Below are positions 7,541-18,399 of a stretch of DNA of 34,524 nt, piece after piece. The stretch is taken from positions 1 to 34,524 of IMG/VR virus record IMGVR_UViG_3300023180_000196; one strand, written 5' to 3'. The first letter of the stretch is position 1. Each line of letters starts with the position of its first letter. Source of the DNA: a virus. The notes under the pieces were generated by a model. It was not told the origin of the DNA. It ran no database searches and worked only from the letters and a program-made list of their open reading frames with translations. The position numbers were made by a program, and so were the translations under genes.

Positions 7541-7973
7541 TTCCACCACGTCCATATGCTGGGGTTGATGCAAATAACGAAAGGAATGCCCCTACACCCG
7601 GAATAGATTTTAGACCAACTTTAGAAGCAATACTAGTTAAAGTACGAGGTTTTAATCCTTTGATAACATCTTTTTCTCTGTTTATTAATTCGCGTCTTAT
7701 TTTTTTGTCTCGTGCGCTAAGATGTTTTTCATTAATATTTTCTAGCTGCCCTATTTTTTGTTGTGCTATTTTAGCCGTAGTAGCATCAATTTTAGCACGG
7801 CGCACCTTTGACTTTTCGCGTCTCTTTGTATCTCTGTCTTTTTTAAACTTTTTACGTCTTCTTTCATCTTCAGTGCCTAAATAAGTAGCTGCAGCAGCAC
7901 CACCTAGCATAGTGCCGCCCAAAATTGCAGCATCTTTAGCTTTTCTTTTATTAGTGTCGTTTCTTCCAGCCAT
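7518..7973 (-). CDS. Basic protein with one possible membrane segment
   Basis: 151 codons from ATG 7973, which overlaps the stop of the upstream gene as TGATG. After a short basic N-terminus there is a Gly/Ala hydrophobic stretch (AAILGGTMLGGAAAATYLG, about residues 15-34), then a very Lys/Arg-rich helical region (RRRKKFKKDRDTKRREKSK) and a final Gly-rich piece ending GRGGNVNKKRR. The pattern resembles small internal virion or DNA-associated proteins in marine phages. It sits between two terminase-related genes. No named family recognised. Confidence 0.6.
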   Translation of the reverse strand: MAGRNDTNKRKAKDAAILGGTMLGGAAAATYLGTEDERRRKKFKKDRDTKRREKSKVRRAKIDATTAKIAQQKIGQLENINEKHLSARDKKIRRELINREKDVIKGLKPRTLTSIASKVGLKSIPGVGAFLSLFASTPAYGRGGNVNKKRR

Positions 7974-8347
7974 CAATCATCTTCCTCAACAATAGCTTTA
8001 GGCGGCATAAGCATCACACCACCACTTGCCTCTACCTGCATCTTCTCTGTCTTCACTAGACCTACACGATCAAGCAATTCTTTAGCGGCAGACATCTTAT
8101 CACGAATACCCAGTTCCGTTGGATTATACAACGCACCTGTCATCGCCATCGCAGCCTTCGGCGCATTACGTGCCATATACATTTGAGTTGCCTCAAGTAT
8201 CTCTTCTTTAAGACCCTTAACAATTTCGCCAGTGCTAGAAGTGTCAGCATACCCTGCCATTTTCTTGGCAGTAACCATATCACCGCCAGCTTCATCAAAT
8301 AGTACAGCAAGAAATTTTTGCTGTTTCTCTGTTAATTGCCTAGCCAT
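7973..8347 (-). CDS. terS: Probable terminase small subunit
   Basis: 124 codons from ATG 8347 with GAGGATG upstream. The N-terminus (LTEKQQKFLAVLFDEAGGD... AKKMAGYAD) matches the terminase small subunit pattern, in which a helix-turn-helix of the Terminase_2 type follows a T-x-KQ-x-x-F start. The middle (IRDKMSAAKELLDRVGLVK) is also typical of this family, and the C-terminus is acidic. The role would be recognition of the packaging site and regulation of the large subunit. It is three genes before terL in transcription order. The HTH protein at 7136-7540 is the competing candidate. Confidence 0.7.
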   Translation of the reverse strand: MARQLTEKQQKFLAVLFDEAGGDMVTAKKMAGYADTSSTGEIVKGLKEEILEATQMYMARNAPKAAMAMTGALYNPTELGIRDKMSAAKELLDRVGLVKTEKMQVEASGGVMLMPPKAIVEEDD

Positions 8348-14771: not shown

Positions 14772-14800
14772 ATTATAACAGATTTCCGCTTTCGTGTCAA
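14772..14800 (-). promoter_or_regulatory. Perfect sigma70 promoter, leftward
   Basis: On the minus strand, -35 TTGACA (14800-14795), a 17-nt spacer, and -10 TATAAT (14777-14772): 12 of 12 consensus bases with ideal spacing. Transcription should begin near 14765 and run into the gene at 14587. This points to host RNA polymerase driving the leftward arm; no phage polymerase gene is in the window. An A/T-tract (14825-14838) lies upstream. Confidence 0.85.
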
Positions 14801-15347: not shown

Positions 15348-15361
15348 GTGATAAATAACAC
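15348..15361. repeat. 14-bp palindrome family, copy 1
   Basis: GTGATAAATAACAC, with A-tracts and ACGTG on the left and CAAAAA on the right. It is 80 bp before the start at 15442, so unlike copies 3-7 it does not directly precede a ribosome site. Confidence 0.8.
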
Positions 15362-15405
15362 AAAAACCAGCTTGCATATGCTTTCCGAATATGCGATAAA
15401 AAGAG

Positions 15406-15419
15406 TGTCAATAGTGACA
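15406..15419. repeat. Inverted repeat TGTCA-ATAG-TGACA
   Basis: A 14-bp perfect inverted repeat 22 bp before ATG 15442. Same length as the palindrome family but different arms, so it is listed apart. Could be an operator of the first rightward gene. Confidence 0.4.
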
Positions 15420-15441
15420 AAACAAATGAAAGGTAAAACCA

Positions 15442-16080
15442 ATGACTAACGTAATCTATGATATTTTCGTAAAGCGCAACAATGCAACACAAGCGTTAAT
15501 CGTAAAGCAAGCGCCGCAAATTCTGGCGCAATGTTGCCAATTTGCAAACGTCATAAACGATGCCCACAATGCCGCGCAATTCGAAACAAAAAACAGCGAA
15601 GCGAAGGCGGGAACCGATGCCATTCGCGAAGCGATTATGAATGACGGCCATTTTGCTTGGCTGTATGATACGAAAGGCAAGCCAAATAAGAAAGGCATAT
15701 CAAAATTGATTATGTCCGATGCAATGCGTAAAATTCGCGAAGGTATGCTTTTCCTTGCCGATGAAAATAACGCCGATTTATTCATAGCGTGGGCCGAAAG
15801 CAAGCCAAATAAATCCGGTGTTTGCGACTTTGCAAATATCAAAAAAGCAATCACGCCGAAAGCAGAAAAGACAAAAAGCGCAAGCGAAGCCACAAGCGAT
15901 GAAAGCGAAACAATCGAAAGCGCAACCGATACCGATGCAAAAAGAACACCAGCAGAATTTTTGGCATGGGTTTACAAGCAAGCAATGGTAGAGTTTAACA
16001 TGGACCCTGTAGAGTTTGCACAATTTGCCGAAAGTCCAGAAGGCATGAAAATTGCCGATGAATTTATCAAAGCGGCATAA
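15442..16080 (+). CDS. First rightward gene, unknown function
   Basis: 212 codons from ATG 15442 with AAAGG 9 nt upstream. The protein is Ala/Lys/Glu/Asn-rich. The N-terminal half (residues 1-130) looks like one folded helical domain (QAPQILAQCCQFANVINDAHNAAQF, then FAWLYDTKGKPNKKGISKLIM). A Lys/Ser/Glu/Thr linker at about 140-175 leads to a C-terminal helical unit (TPAEFLAWVYKQAMVEF). The coding strand is A-rich with many GAA, GCG and AAA codons and uses CGC and CGA more than neighbours, a possible sign of separate origin. Its stop touches palindrome copy 2. First gene after the control region, so a regulatory or host-takeover role is conceivable, but no DNA-binding motif was recognised. Confidence 0.7.
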   Translation: MTNVIYDIFVKRNNATQALIVKQAPQILAQCCQFANVINDAHNAAQFETKNSEAKAGTDAIREAIMNDGHFAWLYDTKGKPNKKGISKLIMSDAMRKIREGMLFLADENNADLFIAWAESKPNKSGVCDFANIKKAITPKAEKTKSASEATSDESETIESATDTDAKRTPAEFLAWVYKQAMVEFNMDPVEFAQFAESPEGMKIADEFIKAA

Positions 16081-16083
16081 AAC

Positions 16084-16097
16084 GTGATAAATATCAC
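16084..16097. repeat. 14-bp palindrome family, copy 2
   Basis: GTGATAAATATCAC, fully paired arms (A/T at the variable position), inside CGTG...CACG. It starts 3 bp after the stop codon of the 15442 gene and is followed by the terminator at 16111 instead of a gene. Confidence 0.85.
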
Positions 16098-16110
16098 GAA
16101 AAACCAATTC

Positions 16111-16142
16111 AATAGGCTGGATTTATTCCGGCCTATTTTTTT
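16111..16142 (+). terminator. Rho-independent terminator
   Basis: Stem AATAGGCTGG (16111-16120) with CCGGCCTATT (16128-16137), 10 bp with one G-U pair, 7-nt loop, then seven T (16136-16142). It ends the transcript of the 15442 gene and isolates it from the rest of the rightward arm. Confidence 0.9.
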
Positions 16143-16153
16143 GCCTGTGTTTT

Positions 16154-16171
16154 GTATTAGCATACTAAAAC
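16154..16171 (+). repeat. 18-bp repeat, copy 2
   Basis: GTATTAGCATACTAAAAC, 15 of 18 identical to 15014-15031. It lies 11 bp after the terminator and before the cluster from 16353, where a new promoter is needed. Confidence 0.35.
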
Positions 16172-16190
16172 GCCAGCCAGCACATTAGGA

Positions 16191-16228
16191 TAGTAGTGGT
16201 GCGGTGGTGGTGCGGTGGTGGTGGTGGC
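16191..16228. repeat. GGT/TGG triplet repeat
   Basis: A G/T-rich simple repeat with units of GGTGC and GGTGG, between the terminator at 16111 and the gene at 16353. The rest of this 270-bp gap holds only palindrome copies 2 and 3 and the 18-bp repeat. The tract may be slippage-prone. Confidence 0.7.
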
Positions 16229-16321
16229 AATGCCATTTTGGTGGGCCACTGGACATACCTATTTATATGTGCTACAGTATATGGACAGTCAGAAATTGGT
16301 CTGGCTGATGGTTCAAAAAAC

Positions 16322-16335
16322 GTGATAAATAACAC
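16322..16335. repeat. 14-bp palindrome family, copy 3
   Basis: GTGATAAATAACAC in CAAAAAACGTG...CACGAAAA. Seventeen nt separate it from ATG 16353, and the ribosome site GGAG falls in that interval. Left flank GATGGTTCAAAAAACGTG is shared with copies 4 and 5 apart from one base. Confidence 0.85.
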
Positions 16336-16352
16336 GAAAATGGAGTAGCACG

Positions 16353-16592
16353 ATGCAAGAATTAGTGACAGTGACAGCCAAAAACTTCTTTGTTTCATAC
16401 ACATCTGGATATGGAATTGAAGGTAGCCGTTTGAATGTAAGTTATGGCGTGTCTGGTAAGACATCCCATATATTGACTAGGGATTTTCCTACAGAAGATG
16501 AGGCAAAACAATATGCGCTTGACATGGGCTATTTAGTACCACATCGTAAAACCATGCAGGTTGTCGTTGGCAATGGTCAAAAAACGTGTTAA
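16353..16592 (+). CDS. Small protein, unknown function
   Basis: 79 codons from ATG 16353 with GGAG 7 nt upstream. Beta-rich pattern (FFVSYTSGYGIEGSRLNVSYG) followed by a helix (TEDEAKQYALDMGYLVP) and a strand, like a small alpha/beta fold. The stop codon and the last residues (QKTC) are encoded by palindrome copy 4 itself, so the element invades the coding end. No family recognised. Confidence 0.6.
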   Translation: MQELVTVTAKNFFVSYTSGYGIEGSRLNVSYGVSGKTSHILTRDFPTEDEAKQYALDMGYLVPHRKTMQVVVGNGQKTC

Positions 16593-16599
16593 TTATCAC
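16586..16599. repeat. 14-bp palindrome family, copy 4
   Basis: GTGTTAATTATCAC (T/T mismatch at the variable pair). The stop codon of the previous gene lies inside it (16590-16592). ATG 16621 follows 21 nt later with GAGG between. Confidence 0.85.
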
Positions 16600-16620
16600 A
16601 AAATTTAGCGAGGTAGTCTG

Positions 16621-16872
16621 ATGAAAAACAAGGGTTTTGAGAATGGCAATGTGGTGCCAATCGTGTCTGGTAATGTTCAATCGTTTTGGGTGGAGATGCC
16701 TAATGAATACAGAAAACGTGATGAACGTATCTATCCGATATTGCGTACAGGTATGCACGACAGCGCAATGCAAACTTACCTTGAGGCTGAGTGTAGGCGA
16801 AAAAAAGAGAAAGCCGCCAGAATATTTGGTGGGCTTGCTGCCAAACTTCGTGCCAAGCGGGATGCCGTTTGA
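16621..16872 (+). CDS. Small basic protein, unknown function
   Basis: 83 codons from ATG 16621 with GAGG 8 nt upstream. The N-terminal half is mixed (ENGNVVPIVSGNVQSFWVEM), the C-terminal half a basic helix (ECRRKKEKAARIFGGLAAKLRAKRDAV). Flanked on both sides by palindrome copies 4 and 5. No family recognised. Confidence 0.55.
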   Translation: MKNKGFENGNVVPIVSGNVQSFWVEMPNEYRKRDERIYPILRTGMHDSAMQTYLEAECRRKKEKAARIFGGLAAKLRAKRDAV

Positions 16873-16916
16873 CATTCGCAGATGGCTATGCTAGGCTTTA
16901 TTCATGGTCAAAAAAC

Positions 16917-16930
16917 GTGGTAATTACCAC
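16917..16930. repeat. 14-bp palindrome family, copy 5
   Basis: GTGGTAATTACCAC, a perfect 14-bp palindrome (G/C at the variable pair). It lies 44 bp after the previous stop and 20 nt before ATG 16951, with GAAAGG between. Confidence 0.88.
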
Positions 16931-16950
16931 AAAATATGAAAGGCAAGATA

Positions 16951-17136
16951 ATGACTATCAATCACAATCTTCTGACTGATGTTATCCGTAGCATCAAGGC
17001 TGATCCTTCCGACAAAAACATGGAAACACAGGTTAACCGTCTGGACAGAGAACACAAACTGCATTTCGCTACGCTTCTGCGTATTGTTGAACGTGGAGAC
17101 GGCTTGCATCCTAACCTTGAAAATGTTGAGGTGTAA
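16951..17136 (+). CDS. Small helical protein, unknown function
   Basis: 61 codons. ATG 16951 is chosen over ATG 16936, because GAAAGG lies between the two and gives 7-nt spacing to 16951. The protein is polar and helical (LTDVIRSIKADPSDKNMETQ, then EHKLHFATLLRIVERGDG). The next gene starts 2 nt after its stop, so the two are probably co-translated. No family recognised. Confidence 0.6.
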   Translation: MTINHNLLTDVIRSIKADPSDKNMETQVNRLDREHKLHFATLLRIVERGDGLHPNLENVEV

Positions 17137-17138
17137 TC

Positions 17139-17369
17139 ATGGTTATCCATCAATTCACAACATCTGAACCCAACCCACCATTTGCTGAGATGCGTATGTC
17201 GTCCTATAATGACTATTGCTTTGACTGTGACTGTGAGGGCATCAAACCTATTGACTGGGGTACATACAAAATGCTAGTCGGTGAATTGATTGCTATTCGC
17301 AAATATACTGAAGCGGCGGCGTGTATGTATGCACAAAAGCTGGCGTTTGATCGCTATCATTCAAACTAA
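17139..17369 (+). CDS. Small Cys-containing protein, unknown function
   Basis: 76 codons from ATG 17139, with GAGG 9 nt upstream inside the preceding gene's end. A Cys/Asp cluster (DYCFDCDCEGIKP) sits near residues 25-37 and may bind metal, followed by helices (AIRKYTEAAACMYAQKLAFD). Palindrome copy 6 follows its stop after 5 bp. No family recognised. Confidence 0.55.
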   Translation: MVIHQFTTSEPNPPFAEMRMSSYNDYCFDCDCEGIKPIDWGTYKMLVGELIAIRKYTEAAACMYAQKLAFDRYHSN

Positions 17370-17374
17370 AAAAC

Positions 17375-17388
17375 GTGTTATTTAACAC
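17375..17388. repeat. 14-bp palindrome family, copy 6
   Basis: GTGTTATTTAACAC, fully paired arms (T/A at the variable position). Begins 5 bp after a stop codon and ends 17 nt before ATG 17406, with CGGAG between. Confidence 0.88.
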
Positions 17389-17405
17389 AAAAAACGGAGA
17401 TGAAA

Positions 17406-18107
17406 ATGACTTACAATCTTATCGGTGTCGGCAACAATGCCAAGACAATCAAGGGTGACGGCTCTGAATACATGACAGCCATCAAGTACATGAAGCCATT
17501 CAAGACTGTCTATCGTGGTAAGGTTCACAATCTATGCGCCATGGCTGAGACTGCCTTGTGCCACCAAGGTTGCCTCTATTCCGCTGGTCGTGGGCAGATG
17601 TCTAGTGTACAGCGTGGTCGTGAGCGTAAGACATTGTGGTATATCTCAGATCGCATCGGGTTTATGGATGCGCTTATCAACGATATCAATGTGTTCAGAC
17701 GCAGACAGATCAAGAATGGTGTTCAACCTTGTGTGCGCCTAAATGGTACTAGCGACATAATGTATGAGAAATCTGGCATCATGGAGCAGTTTCCAGACGT
17801 GCAATTCTATGACTACACAAAGATTGTCAAACGTGCCTATGCCAAATTGCCTGACAATTACCATCTGACGCTATCCTACAGCGAGGCTGACATGGATTAT
17901 GCTGACAGTGTTTATCAGGCAGTGCTTGACACTGGTGTCAATATGGCTGTAGTGTTTCGTGACAAATTGCCTGAGACATTTCGTGGATTGCGTGTTATTG
18001 ACGGTGACAAGGACGATCTGCGCTTTCTTGACCCGAAGGGTGTTGTTGTAGGACTAAAAGCCAAGGGCAGTGCCAAGAAAGACACCAGCGGCTTTGTTGT
18101 AGGCTAA
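17406..18107 (+). CDS. DUF7227-like protein with three-Cys motif
   Basis: 233 codons. ATG 17406 is chosen because GGAG ends at 17399; an ATG touching it at 17400 has no spacing. The sequence LCAMAETALCHQGCLYSAGRG gives three Cys (C44, C52, C56) followed by GRG, then a helix with the SVQRGRERKTLWY pattern, a RLNGTSDIMYE strand end, QFPDVQFYDYTK, LTLSYSEADMDYA, and MAVVFRDKLPETFRG...GDKDDLRFLDPKGVVVGLKAKG. I recognise this as a widespread phage protein family (DUF7227, unverified) whose alternating strands and helices suggest a TIM-barrel. The Cys cluster at the N-terminus with a barrel recalls radical-SAM-type proteins, but the canonical CxxxCxxC is not present, so this is only a hypothesis. 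Flanked by palindrome copies 6 and 7. Confidence 0.65.
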   Translation: MTYNLIGVGNNAKTIKGDGSEYMTAIKYMKPFKTVYRGKVHNLCAMAETALCHQGCLYSAGRGQMSSVQRGRERKTLWYISDRIGFMDALINDINVFRRRQIKNGVQPCVRLNGTSDIMYEKSGIMEQFPDVQFYDYTKIVKRAYAKLPDNYHLTLSYSEADMDYADSVYQAVLDTGVNMAVVFRDKLPETFRGLRVIDGDKDDLRFLDPKGVVVGLKAKGSAKKDTSGFVVG

Positions 18108-18113
18108 AAAAAC

Positions 18114-18127
18114 GTGATAAATAACAC
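18114..18127. repeat. 14-bp palindrome family, copy 7
   Basis: GTGATAAATAACAC, identical to copies 1 and 3. Begins 6 bp after a stop codon and ends 17 nt before ATG 18145, with GGAG between. It is the last copy seen. Confidence 0.85.
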
Positions 18128-18144
18128 AAAAAATGGAGACTAAT

Positions 18145-18399
18145 ATGACTATGTTACATAACATTATCAAGCTACAGCTACCAGACGGTAGAGAAGTGAG
18201 CATCATCCAGAATGGCAATGGGCGTGAAGGCGGTGCTTATGGTCACGCTGACCAGCATATGTGTGAGGTGTCTGTAGAGGGTGAGCCTGACGTGAAGGGT
18301 TATCTTGATCTGTCAGAACTGGTTGAGTACCTGAGATATTTGGACACTACACAGACGCTTAGTGGCCCGATTGATGGGAGCAAATATGAACATGACTGA
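18145..18399 (+). CDS. Small protein, unknown function
   Basis: 84 codons. ATG 18145 has GGAG 6 nt upstream; the ATG at 18133 overlaps that ribosome site and is rejected. Beta-rich start (IIKLQLPDGREVSIIQNGNG), His residues (GHADQHMCEV), then a DLSELVEYLRYLD helix. Overlaps the next gene by 14 nt. No family recognised. Confidence 0.55.
   Translation: MTMLHNIIKLQLPDGREVSIIQNGNGREGGAYGHADQHMCEVSVEGEPDVKGYLDLSELVEYLRYLDTTQTLSGPIDGSKYEHD

Follow-up and report, generated by a model that had tools for sequence, protein, structure and literature searches.

An array of putative palindromic operators and its candidate regulator in the early region of an HMO-2011-type phage fragment

Phage P1 carries one repressor, C1, of which the asymmetric operators are dispersed over the genome. 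Cluster A mycobacteriophages, including L5 and Bxb1, employ stoperators, which are numerous short repressor sites dispersed over the genome, on the upstream side of the repressor gene as well as beyond it, with sequences that have diverged in parallel with the repressor (PMC6550527); these sites are asymmetric, span 13 bp (PMC6550527), and are read by a repressor monomer (PMC9283540). Moreover, the repeated element SPBRE of phage SPbeta is encountered at various intergenic regions and has been discussed as a regulator binding site, with a single master repressor (PMC10516654), MrpR (YopR), that has been likened to tyrosine recombinases (PMC10516654). Phages of the HMO-2011 type are described as dominant and widespread in the sea, and the words promoter, repressor, and palindrome are absent from the text of the paper on this group (PMC9038755). 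This paper describes seven 14-bp palindromes, and the product of the gene that opens their array (designated gpA), in IMG/VR virus record IMGVR_UViG_3300023180_000196 (positions 1 to 34,524; this whole stretch is referred to as the window). We consider it probable that the palindromes are double-stranded DNA operators for gpA, and that bound gpA switches off the early block of genes by acting as a roadblock.

The 34,524-base window is part of the genome of an HMO-2011-type podovirus. Its family A DNA polymerase, which shares 77% identity with the enzyme of Puniceispirillum phage HMO-2011, contains the DnaJ central domain insertion (DnaJ_CXXCXGXG match, E 4e-5, under the curated cut-off) that is typical of this group. 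Furthermore, the window encodes an integrase, a DnaB-like helicase, endonuclease I, and a B12-type ribonucleotide reductase, in the gene order that is usual for the HMO-2011 group.

The seven 14-mers of the original prediction were recovered at the same start positions, all within 3 kb of the start of the rightward early region:

15348..15361, plus strand: operator copy 1, GTGATAAATAACAC (half-sites GTGWTA and TAWCAC), which precedes the regulator gene and a promoter-like TTGCAT-N17-GATAAA pair
16084..16097, plus strand: operator copy 2, GTGATAAATATCAC, 3 nt past the gpA stop codon and ahead of a terminator
16322..16335, plus strand: operator copy 3, GTGATAAATAACAC, with the ATG at 16353 located 17 nt downstream
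16586..16599, plus strand: operator copy 4, GTGTTAATTATCAC, holding the stop codon of a 79-aa gene
16917..16930, plus strand: operator copy 5, GTGGTAATTACCAC
17375..17388, plus strand: operator copy 6, GTGTTATTTAACAC
18114..18127, plus strand: operator copy 7, GTGATAAATAACAC, the final copy

Their consensus is GTG-N-TA-WW-TA-N-CAC, and the pattern GTGNTANNTANCAC occurs seven times in the window, compared with a mean of 0.02 and a maximum of 1 in 100 dinucleotide shuffles. As had been claimed, no copy follows position 18127; across the 34.5 kb there is no further copy at one mismatch or less, and the closest strings with two mismatches (17636, 22646, and 31781) all lack the flanks. The reported gaps of 17, 21, 20, 17, and 17 nt between copies 3-7 and an ATG are exact, and the association of four copies with stop codons was likewise recovered, copy 4 including that of the 79-aa gene and copies 2, 6, and 7 starting 3, 5, and 6 nt past one. 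The A-tracts are genuine and are present on both sides of the palindrome on the same strand, and thus the flank is oriented and the core symmetric. The claim that positions 4 and 11 undergo compensating changes did not hold, since these positions are symmetric in just three of the seven window copies, and in 22 of 33 GTG-type sites from six contigs as compared to 21.8 after within-phage shuffling of half-site bases (P=0.56). The pattern at these positions is a half-site preference, not base-pair covariation.

Relatives were compared by using the gp88-type gene as an anchor and reading the regions upstream of its homologues for repeats (L-numbers denote loci or contigs of relatives; the metagenomic contigs are incomplete, and little can be read from an absence in a short one). 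Several relatives carry a different palindrome in place of the GTG type at the same position upstream of the gp88-type gene, and an open search for repeated dyads detected arrays in about half of the gp88-anchored loci, short contigs included. The common layout consists of about 3-11 palindromes just ahead of ribosome sites in the early region, whereby the palindrome is lineage-specific and the operator dyads span 14-17 bp across classes:

L011-L015: TGTCTGA-N3-TCAGACA array, about ten copies
L051-L053: TGTCAA-N3-TTGACA array
L067: TGACGGA-N3-TCCGTCA array, eleven copies
a large group including HMO-2011, CRP-345, and CRP-1: GTCCRA-NN-TYGGAC array

The GTG-type palindrome was found again in contigs retrieved by pattern, and one copy (L091:1919) is bordered by palindromic flanks (AAAAACGTG...CACATTTTT) rather than by A-tracts on both sides. 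The GTCCRA array occurs together with a gp74-family protein in the isolates HMO-2011, CRP-1, and CRP-345. The gp74 family comprises 193 loci in IMG/VR, 80 of which were fetched; an array, defined as at least three spaced copies of one 5+5 palindrome, was present in 69 of these 80 and in 3 of 240 shuffles, some of the 11 array-less loci being short contigs. Neither a regulator homologue nor such an array was detectable within the first 14 kb of CRP-2, CRP-3, CRP-207, CRP-603, CRP-738, and HTVC033P. Of these, CRP-3, a phage from another subgroup, integrates (PMC9038755).

Other repeats were observed in the relatives as well. Upstream of the gp88-type gene in L023, L026, L028, and L032 (in L023 at about 7930-8000), a TTGACA-N17-TAACGT promoter-like sequence is overlapped by the inverted repeat GGCAATCT...AGATTG, which is possibly a different operator in relatives that lack a palindrome array; a similar combination of promoter and inverted repeat (ACAACAATG...CATTGTTGT) occurs in L056 and L058. 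In gp74-type phages, a second inverted repeat (e.g., AATACACTTGAAACATAGTGAAAGTGTATT, with arms varying by copy) is located just 5' of two operators and is followed by TTACTTARRTATACT (L016:7448-7507, L016:8537-8596, L029:8726-8785, L040:523-582, and similar positions), and possibly serves in RNA processing or as a promoter element.

The sites in relatives are not scattered randomly inside genes, but are enriched before a Shine-Dalgarno sequence plus start codon. Such a combination was found at most 90 nt downstream, mostly at 15-25 nt, for 178 of 318 gp74-family sites, the corresponding figures being 32% for random positions and 45 of 435 for the opposite strand. The regulator gene itself has a site upstream in 52 of 62 gp74-family cases, and a site within its own frame, always in one phase, in 58 of 62. 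In phages of the GTG, TGTCTGA, and TGTCAA classes a site is located directly past the regulator stop codon, with a terminator behind it in most of the cases checked. The regulator gene is therefore a unit of its own that is bounded by sites, with the downstream genes carrying sites in their leaders. The presence of a dedicated promoter at each site was considered and rejected: a promoter occurs in the 30 nt upstream of 9.5% of the gp74-type sites versus 4.2% at random, which represents only slight enrichment.

The gene that opens each array encodes an orphan protein of approximately 200 residues, in which a variable linker joins a helical N-terminal part to a short helical C-terminal one. In the window, this gene and its signals are:

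15442..16080, plus strand: gpA, a 212-aa orphan and putative operator-binding regulator; first rightward early gene and positional equivalent of HMO-2011 gp74
15372..15400, plus strand: candidate gpA promoter (TTGCAT, 17 nt, GATAAA), a weak reading made by eye and missed by the promoter scan
15820..15852, plus strand: gpA codons 127-137 (VCDFANIKKAI), the hhalign counterpart of the sister-family helix that bears residues 112 and 116; includes A131 and K135
16111..16137, plus strand: intrinsic terminator behind gpA, an 11-bp stem followed by a T run

In gpA, the helical N-domain is followed by a disordered linker at about 141-167 and C-terminal helices. Relatives of gpA were encountered in only two contigs, both of which carry GTG-type arrays. 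Other palindrome classes pair with other first-gene proteins, several of which are joined by profile searches. With the gp74 profile, the first genes of L067 (3e-8) and L094 (1.4e-4) and, weakly, the window gpA were retrieved, and with the gpA profile those of L053 (1e-8) and L051 (9e-7), E-values being computed over a small set of open reading frames (ORFs). By hhalign, gpA residues 126-137 fall on the gp74-family helix, with A131 and K135 at the positions of residues 112 and 116 (probability 68%, moderate). Neither gpA nor its relatives match a Pfam family, PHROGs searches with the first-gene proteins gave no convincing match, with a weak hit for a single relative, and solved structures provided no match by sequence or by fold. 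The viral structure library gave a single clear match, to an unnamed 205-aa protein that has the length of HMO-2011 gp74. A tblastn search with gpA against the phage collection gave no match, and no plasmids with similar DNA were found.

The association between regulator and palindrome could be resolved to individual residues in the gp74 family, the largest one, for which 69 phages were available with either A or G as the fifth half-site base. Each phage was placed in the A or the G class on the basis of every site on its contig; the association of each alignment column with this class was scored and then tested on a tree that was built without columns 112 and 116. The operator GTCCGA coincides with K116 combined with S, K, or D at position 112 in 16/16 phages, and the operator GTCCAA with T112, or with S112 plus R116, in 53/53 phages. 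For this pair rule, all 10 independent contrasts on well-supported branches were concordant (10/10; sign test p 0.002), and for K116 alone 8.7 contrasts were in the same and 0 in the opposite direction. The strongest associations among the 112 columns were those of 116 and 112, then 138, and then 119 and 122. Column 138 is encoded by the in-gene palindrome itself, and columns 112, 116, 119, and 122 lie on one predicted helix (111-127). With every site on a contig contributing to its class, linkage of the helix codons to the in-gene site alone cannot account for the coevolution. The residue-base matching thus indicates that in the gp74 family the palindromes are DNA operators that are read by the first-early-gene protein. 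Phages with S112/R116 also carry mixed half-sites; in L127, L136, and L140, asymmetric GTCCGA-NN-TTGGAC sites stand alongside GTCCAA sites, and may represent a state between the two specificities.

Among gpA-type proteins, L091 (S131/K135) has G at position 4 in 14/14 half-sites, and L094 (A131/T135) has only A or T at this position. On sequence comparison, the three gpA-type proteins are consistent in outline with the gp74-family residue rule, the GTG-type variable base being one position further from the centre than that of the gp74 family. Operator binding appears well supported, by coevolution for the gp74 sister family and by homology for the window gpA, and we infer that gpA-type regulators repress.

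A gpA dimer would bind each 14-bp dyad via the helix around residues 127-137. Copies 1 and 2, which bracket the gpA gene with its own terminator, could serve in autoregulation and limit gpA synthesis. Copies 3-7 lie in transcribed gaps just 5' of ribosome sites, where bound gpA would stand in the way of RNA polymerase at one gene boundary after another. The early block would in this manner be shut off in lysogeny, an integrase being present, or at the early-to-middle switch. The genes and promoter-like sequences that are interspersed with copies 3-7 are:

16250..16278, plus strand: promoter-like TGGACA-N17-TACAGT with TG; sequence common to L094, L095, and L098 before the first downstream gene
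16353..16592, plus strand: 79-aa early gene with no assigned function; its L095 homologue is 92% identical
16621..16872, plus strand: 83-aa early gene, with homologues in five array-bearing relatives
16869..16897, plus strand: promoter-like TTGACA-N17-TAGGCT, which also precedes the corresponding operator in L094, L095, and L091; copy 5 begins 19 nt past its -10
16936..17136, plus strand: 66-aa early gene, for which the ATG at 16951 better matches the operator spacing
17139..17369, plus strand: 76-aa early gene, with homologues in L094, L095, L096, and L015
17400..18107, plus strand: gp88-type protein (PF17338), encoded between copies 6 and 7 and forming the conserved anchor of the array region
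18133..18399, plus strand: 88-aa gene past the last operator, for which the ATG at 18145 matches the operator spacing

The original prediction had left three options open, being a stoperator-like operator array, an RNA hairpin, and a linker for gene shuffling. The first is supported by the different palindromes that relatives carry, matched to the first-early-gene protein. The second, in which the palindrome would form a 5' leader hairpin that controls translation or decay, has in its favour that the copies lie on the coding strand 17-21 nt ahead of start codons, that copies 2, 5, and 6 can form stems of 5-6 bp, and that other palindrome classes give stems of 6-7 bp with short loops. However, the three A/A copies have a stem of only 3-4 bp, the best fold of copy 4 lacks the hairpin, and folds are only slightly better than those of shuffles (z -1.8 to +0.5). 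Moreover, half-sites vary independently, site centres contain TG as well as CA, and one copy of the HMO-2011 array is in exact reverse complement, as fits a DNA site that is used in both orientations. Absence of covariation at positions 4 and 11, the two centre orientations, and the weak folds together favour a double-stranded DNA dyad, and site sequence also follows the two helix residues, which makes an RNA element very unlikely. The linker option, in which homologous recombination would maintain the sites without a dedicated binding protein, draws on the differing gene content between sites among relatives and on the upstream flanks that copies 3-5 have in common. This is the least probable of the explanations, because lineages that differ in sequence retain dyad symmetry, the palindrome tracks the recognition helix of the regulator, the regulator gene contains an in-frame site in most gp74-family cases, and conservation between phages comprises the core and the A-rich borders and not the further flanks.

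Two additional explanations accept a dedicated DNA-binding protein. Recruitment of host RNA polymerase by the regulator at each early gene would agree with the many sites that precede a gene and with the position of copy 1 upstream of the likely gpA promoter, which suits activation as well as repression. Nevertheless, sites near promoter-like sequences are often downstream of the -10, where activators rarely bind (16892-16897 with copy 5, TATACT, and several gp74-type sites), and sites within genes and at gene ends are ill-suited to this role; we regard general activation as unlikely. Dispersed palindromes next to a gene for a small helical DNA-binding protein that has a disordered linker and ends in a helical tail also resemble the layouts of parS, the centromere-like sites of partition or genome-organising systems. 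A ParB-like function is, however, highly improbable, as the Pfam and PHROGs searches gave no ParB match for the regulator, the sites keep to gene boundaries and ribosome sites, and the phage has an integrase instead.

Besides the position of copy 1, several points weigh against repression by a gpA roadblock. Binding of gpA and its effects on expression are deduced from sequence comparison, and the roadblock from position alone; most sites are without a sigma-70 promoter of their own, so that promoter occlusion is not the general mode. The residue rule derives from the sister family, the gpA type having three members only, and the pair rule was obtained from the same data on which it was tested, which makes the single-column figures safer. 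The regulator family of L011 has no profile link to the other regulator families. The predicted structure of gpA is weak (pLDDT 66), and the gp74-family model is better (pLDDT 82) yet matches no solved structure. Finally, relatives of gpA or the gp74 family were absent from one genome per species of 84,980 species in pattern-based searches, which perform best for close relatives; with no bacterial genome found to carry such a regulator, lysogeny is a putative trait of this group.

Elsewhere in the early region, the window encodes a cell wall hydrolase (PF07486; 22556-22975), and 20256-20756 shows a weak match, just under the cut-off, to a pyrimidine dimer DNA glycosylase (PF03013). On the minus strand, at 14772-14800, a sigma-70 promoter that matches the consensus perfectly (TTGACA, 17 nt, TATAAT, with TG ahead of the -10) faces the leftward genes and has no operator copy nearby.

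For phages whose early genes mostly lack names, the data yield a candidate for the master regulator, the sites that it would bind, and a specificity rule of two residues. Provided that these regulators act as repressors, mutual immunity between phages would be predictable from their palindrome class. With their repeated switches of entire operator sets, these phages also provide a natural example of a transcription factor changing together with all of its sites. In a broader proposal, to which we assign slightly less than even chances, these proteins would constitute a superfamily of phage DNA-binding regulators that has gone unrecognised, has a fold unmatched in the PDB, and reads dispersed palindromes in an abundant group of marine phages; specificity would switch repeatedly at two helix residues while all operators of a genome change in step, and immunity groups would then be predictable from sequence.

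Within its own group, the window differs from HMO-2011, CRP-1, and CRP-345 by its GTG palindrome and gpA. The array shares with P1 the dispersal of operators over the genome for one repressor, and differs from it by symmetric operators and an unrelated regulator. Like SPBRE, it is a repeated intergenic phage element with a proposed regulator, although gpA and its relatives, unlike MrpR, have no tyrosine recombinase match in Pfam. The array resembles the stoperators of cluster A mycobacteriophages, as repeated short sites are matched to one phage regulator and diverge with it. The repressor bound to stoperators stops transcription and gives superinfection immunity, whereas the likeness here is drawn from sites and regulator sequences. 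In contrast to the asymmetric stoperators, the present sites are dyads of 14-17 bp with independently used half-sites. Stoperators have one predominant orientation with respect to transcription; of the present sites, the symmetric core carries no orientation, the A-rich borders in GTG-type phages do, and in other phages the centres are found both ways. The first-early-gene protein, which matches no Pfam family, is moreover unrelated to the stoperator repressor by family search. Most likely, the array works in the manner of stoperators with unrelated, palindromic parts, and it is not classed as a member of the stoperators.

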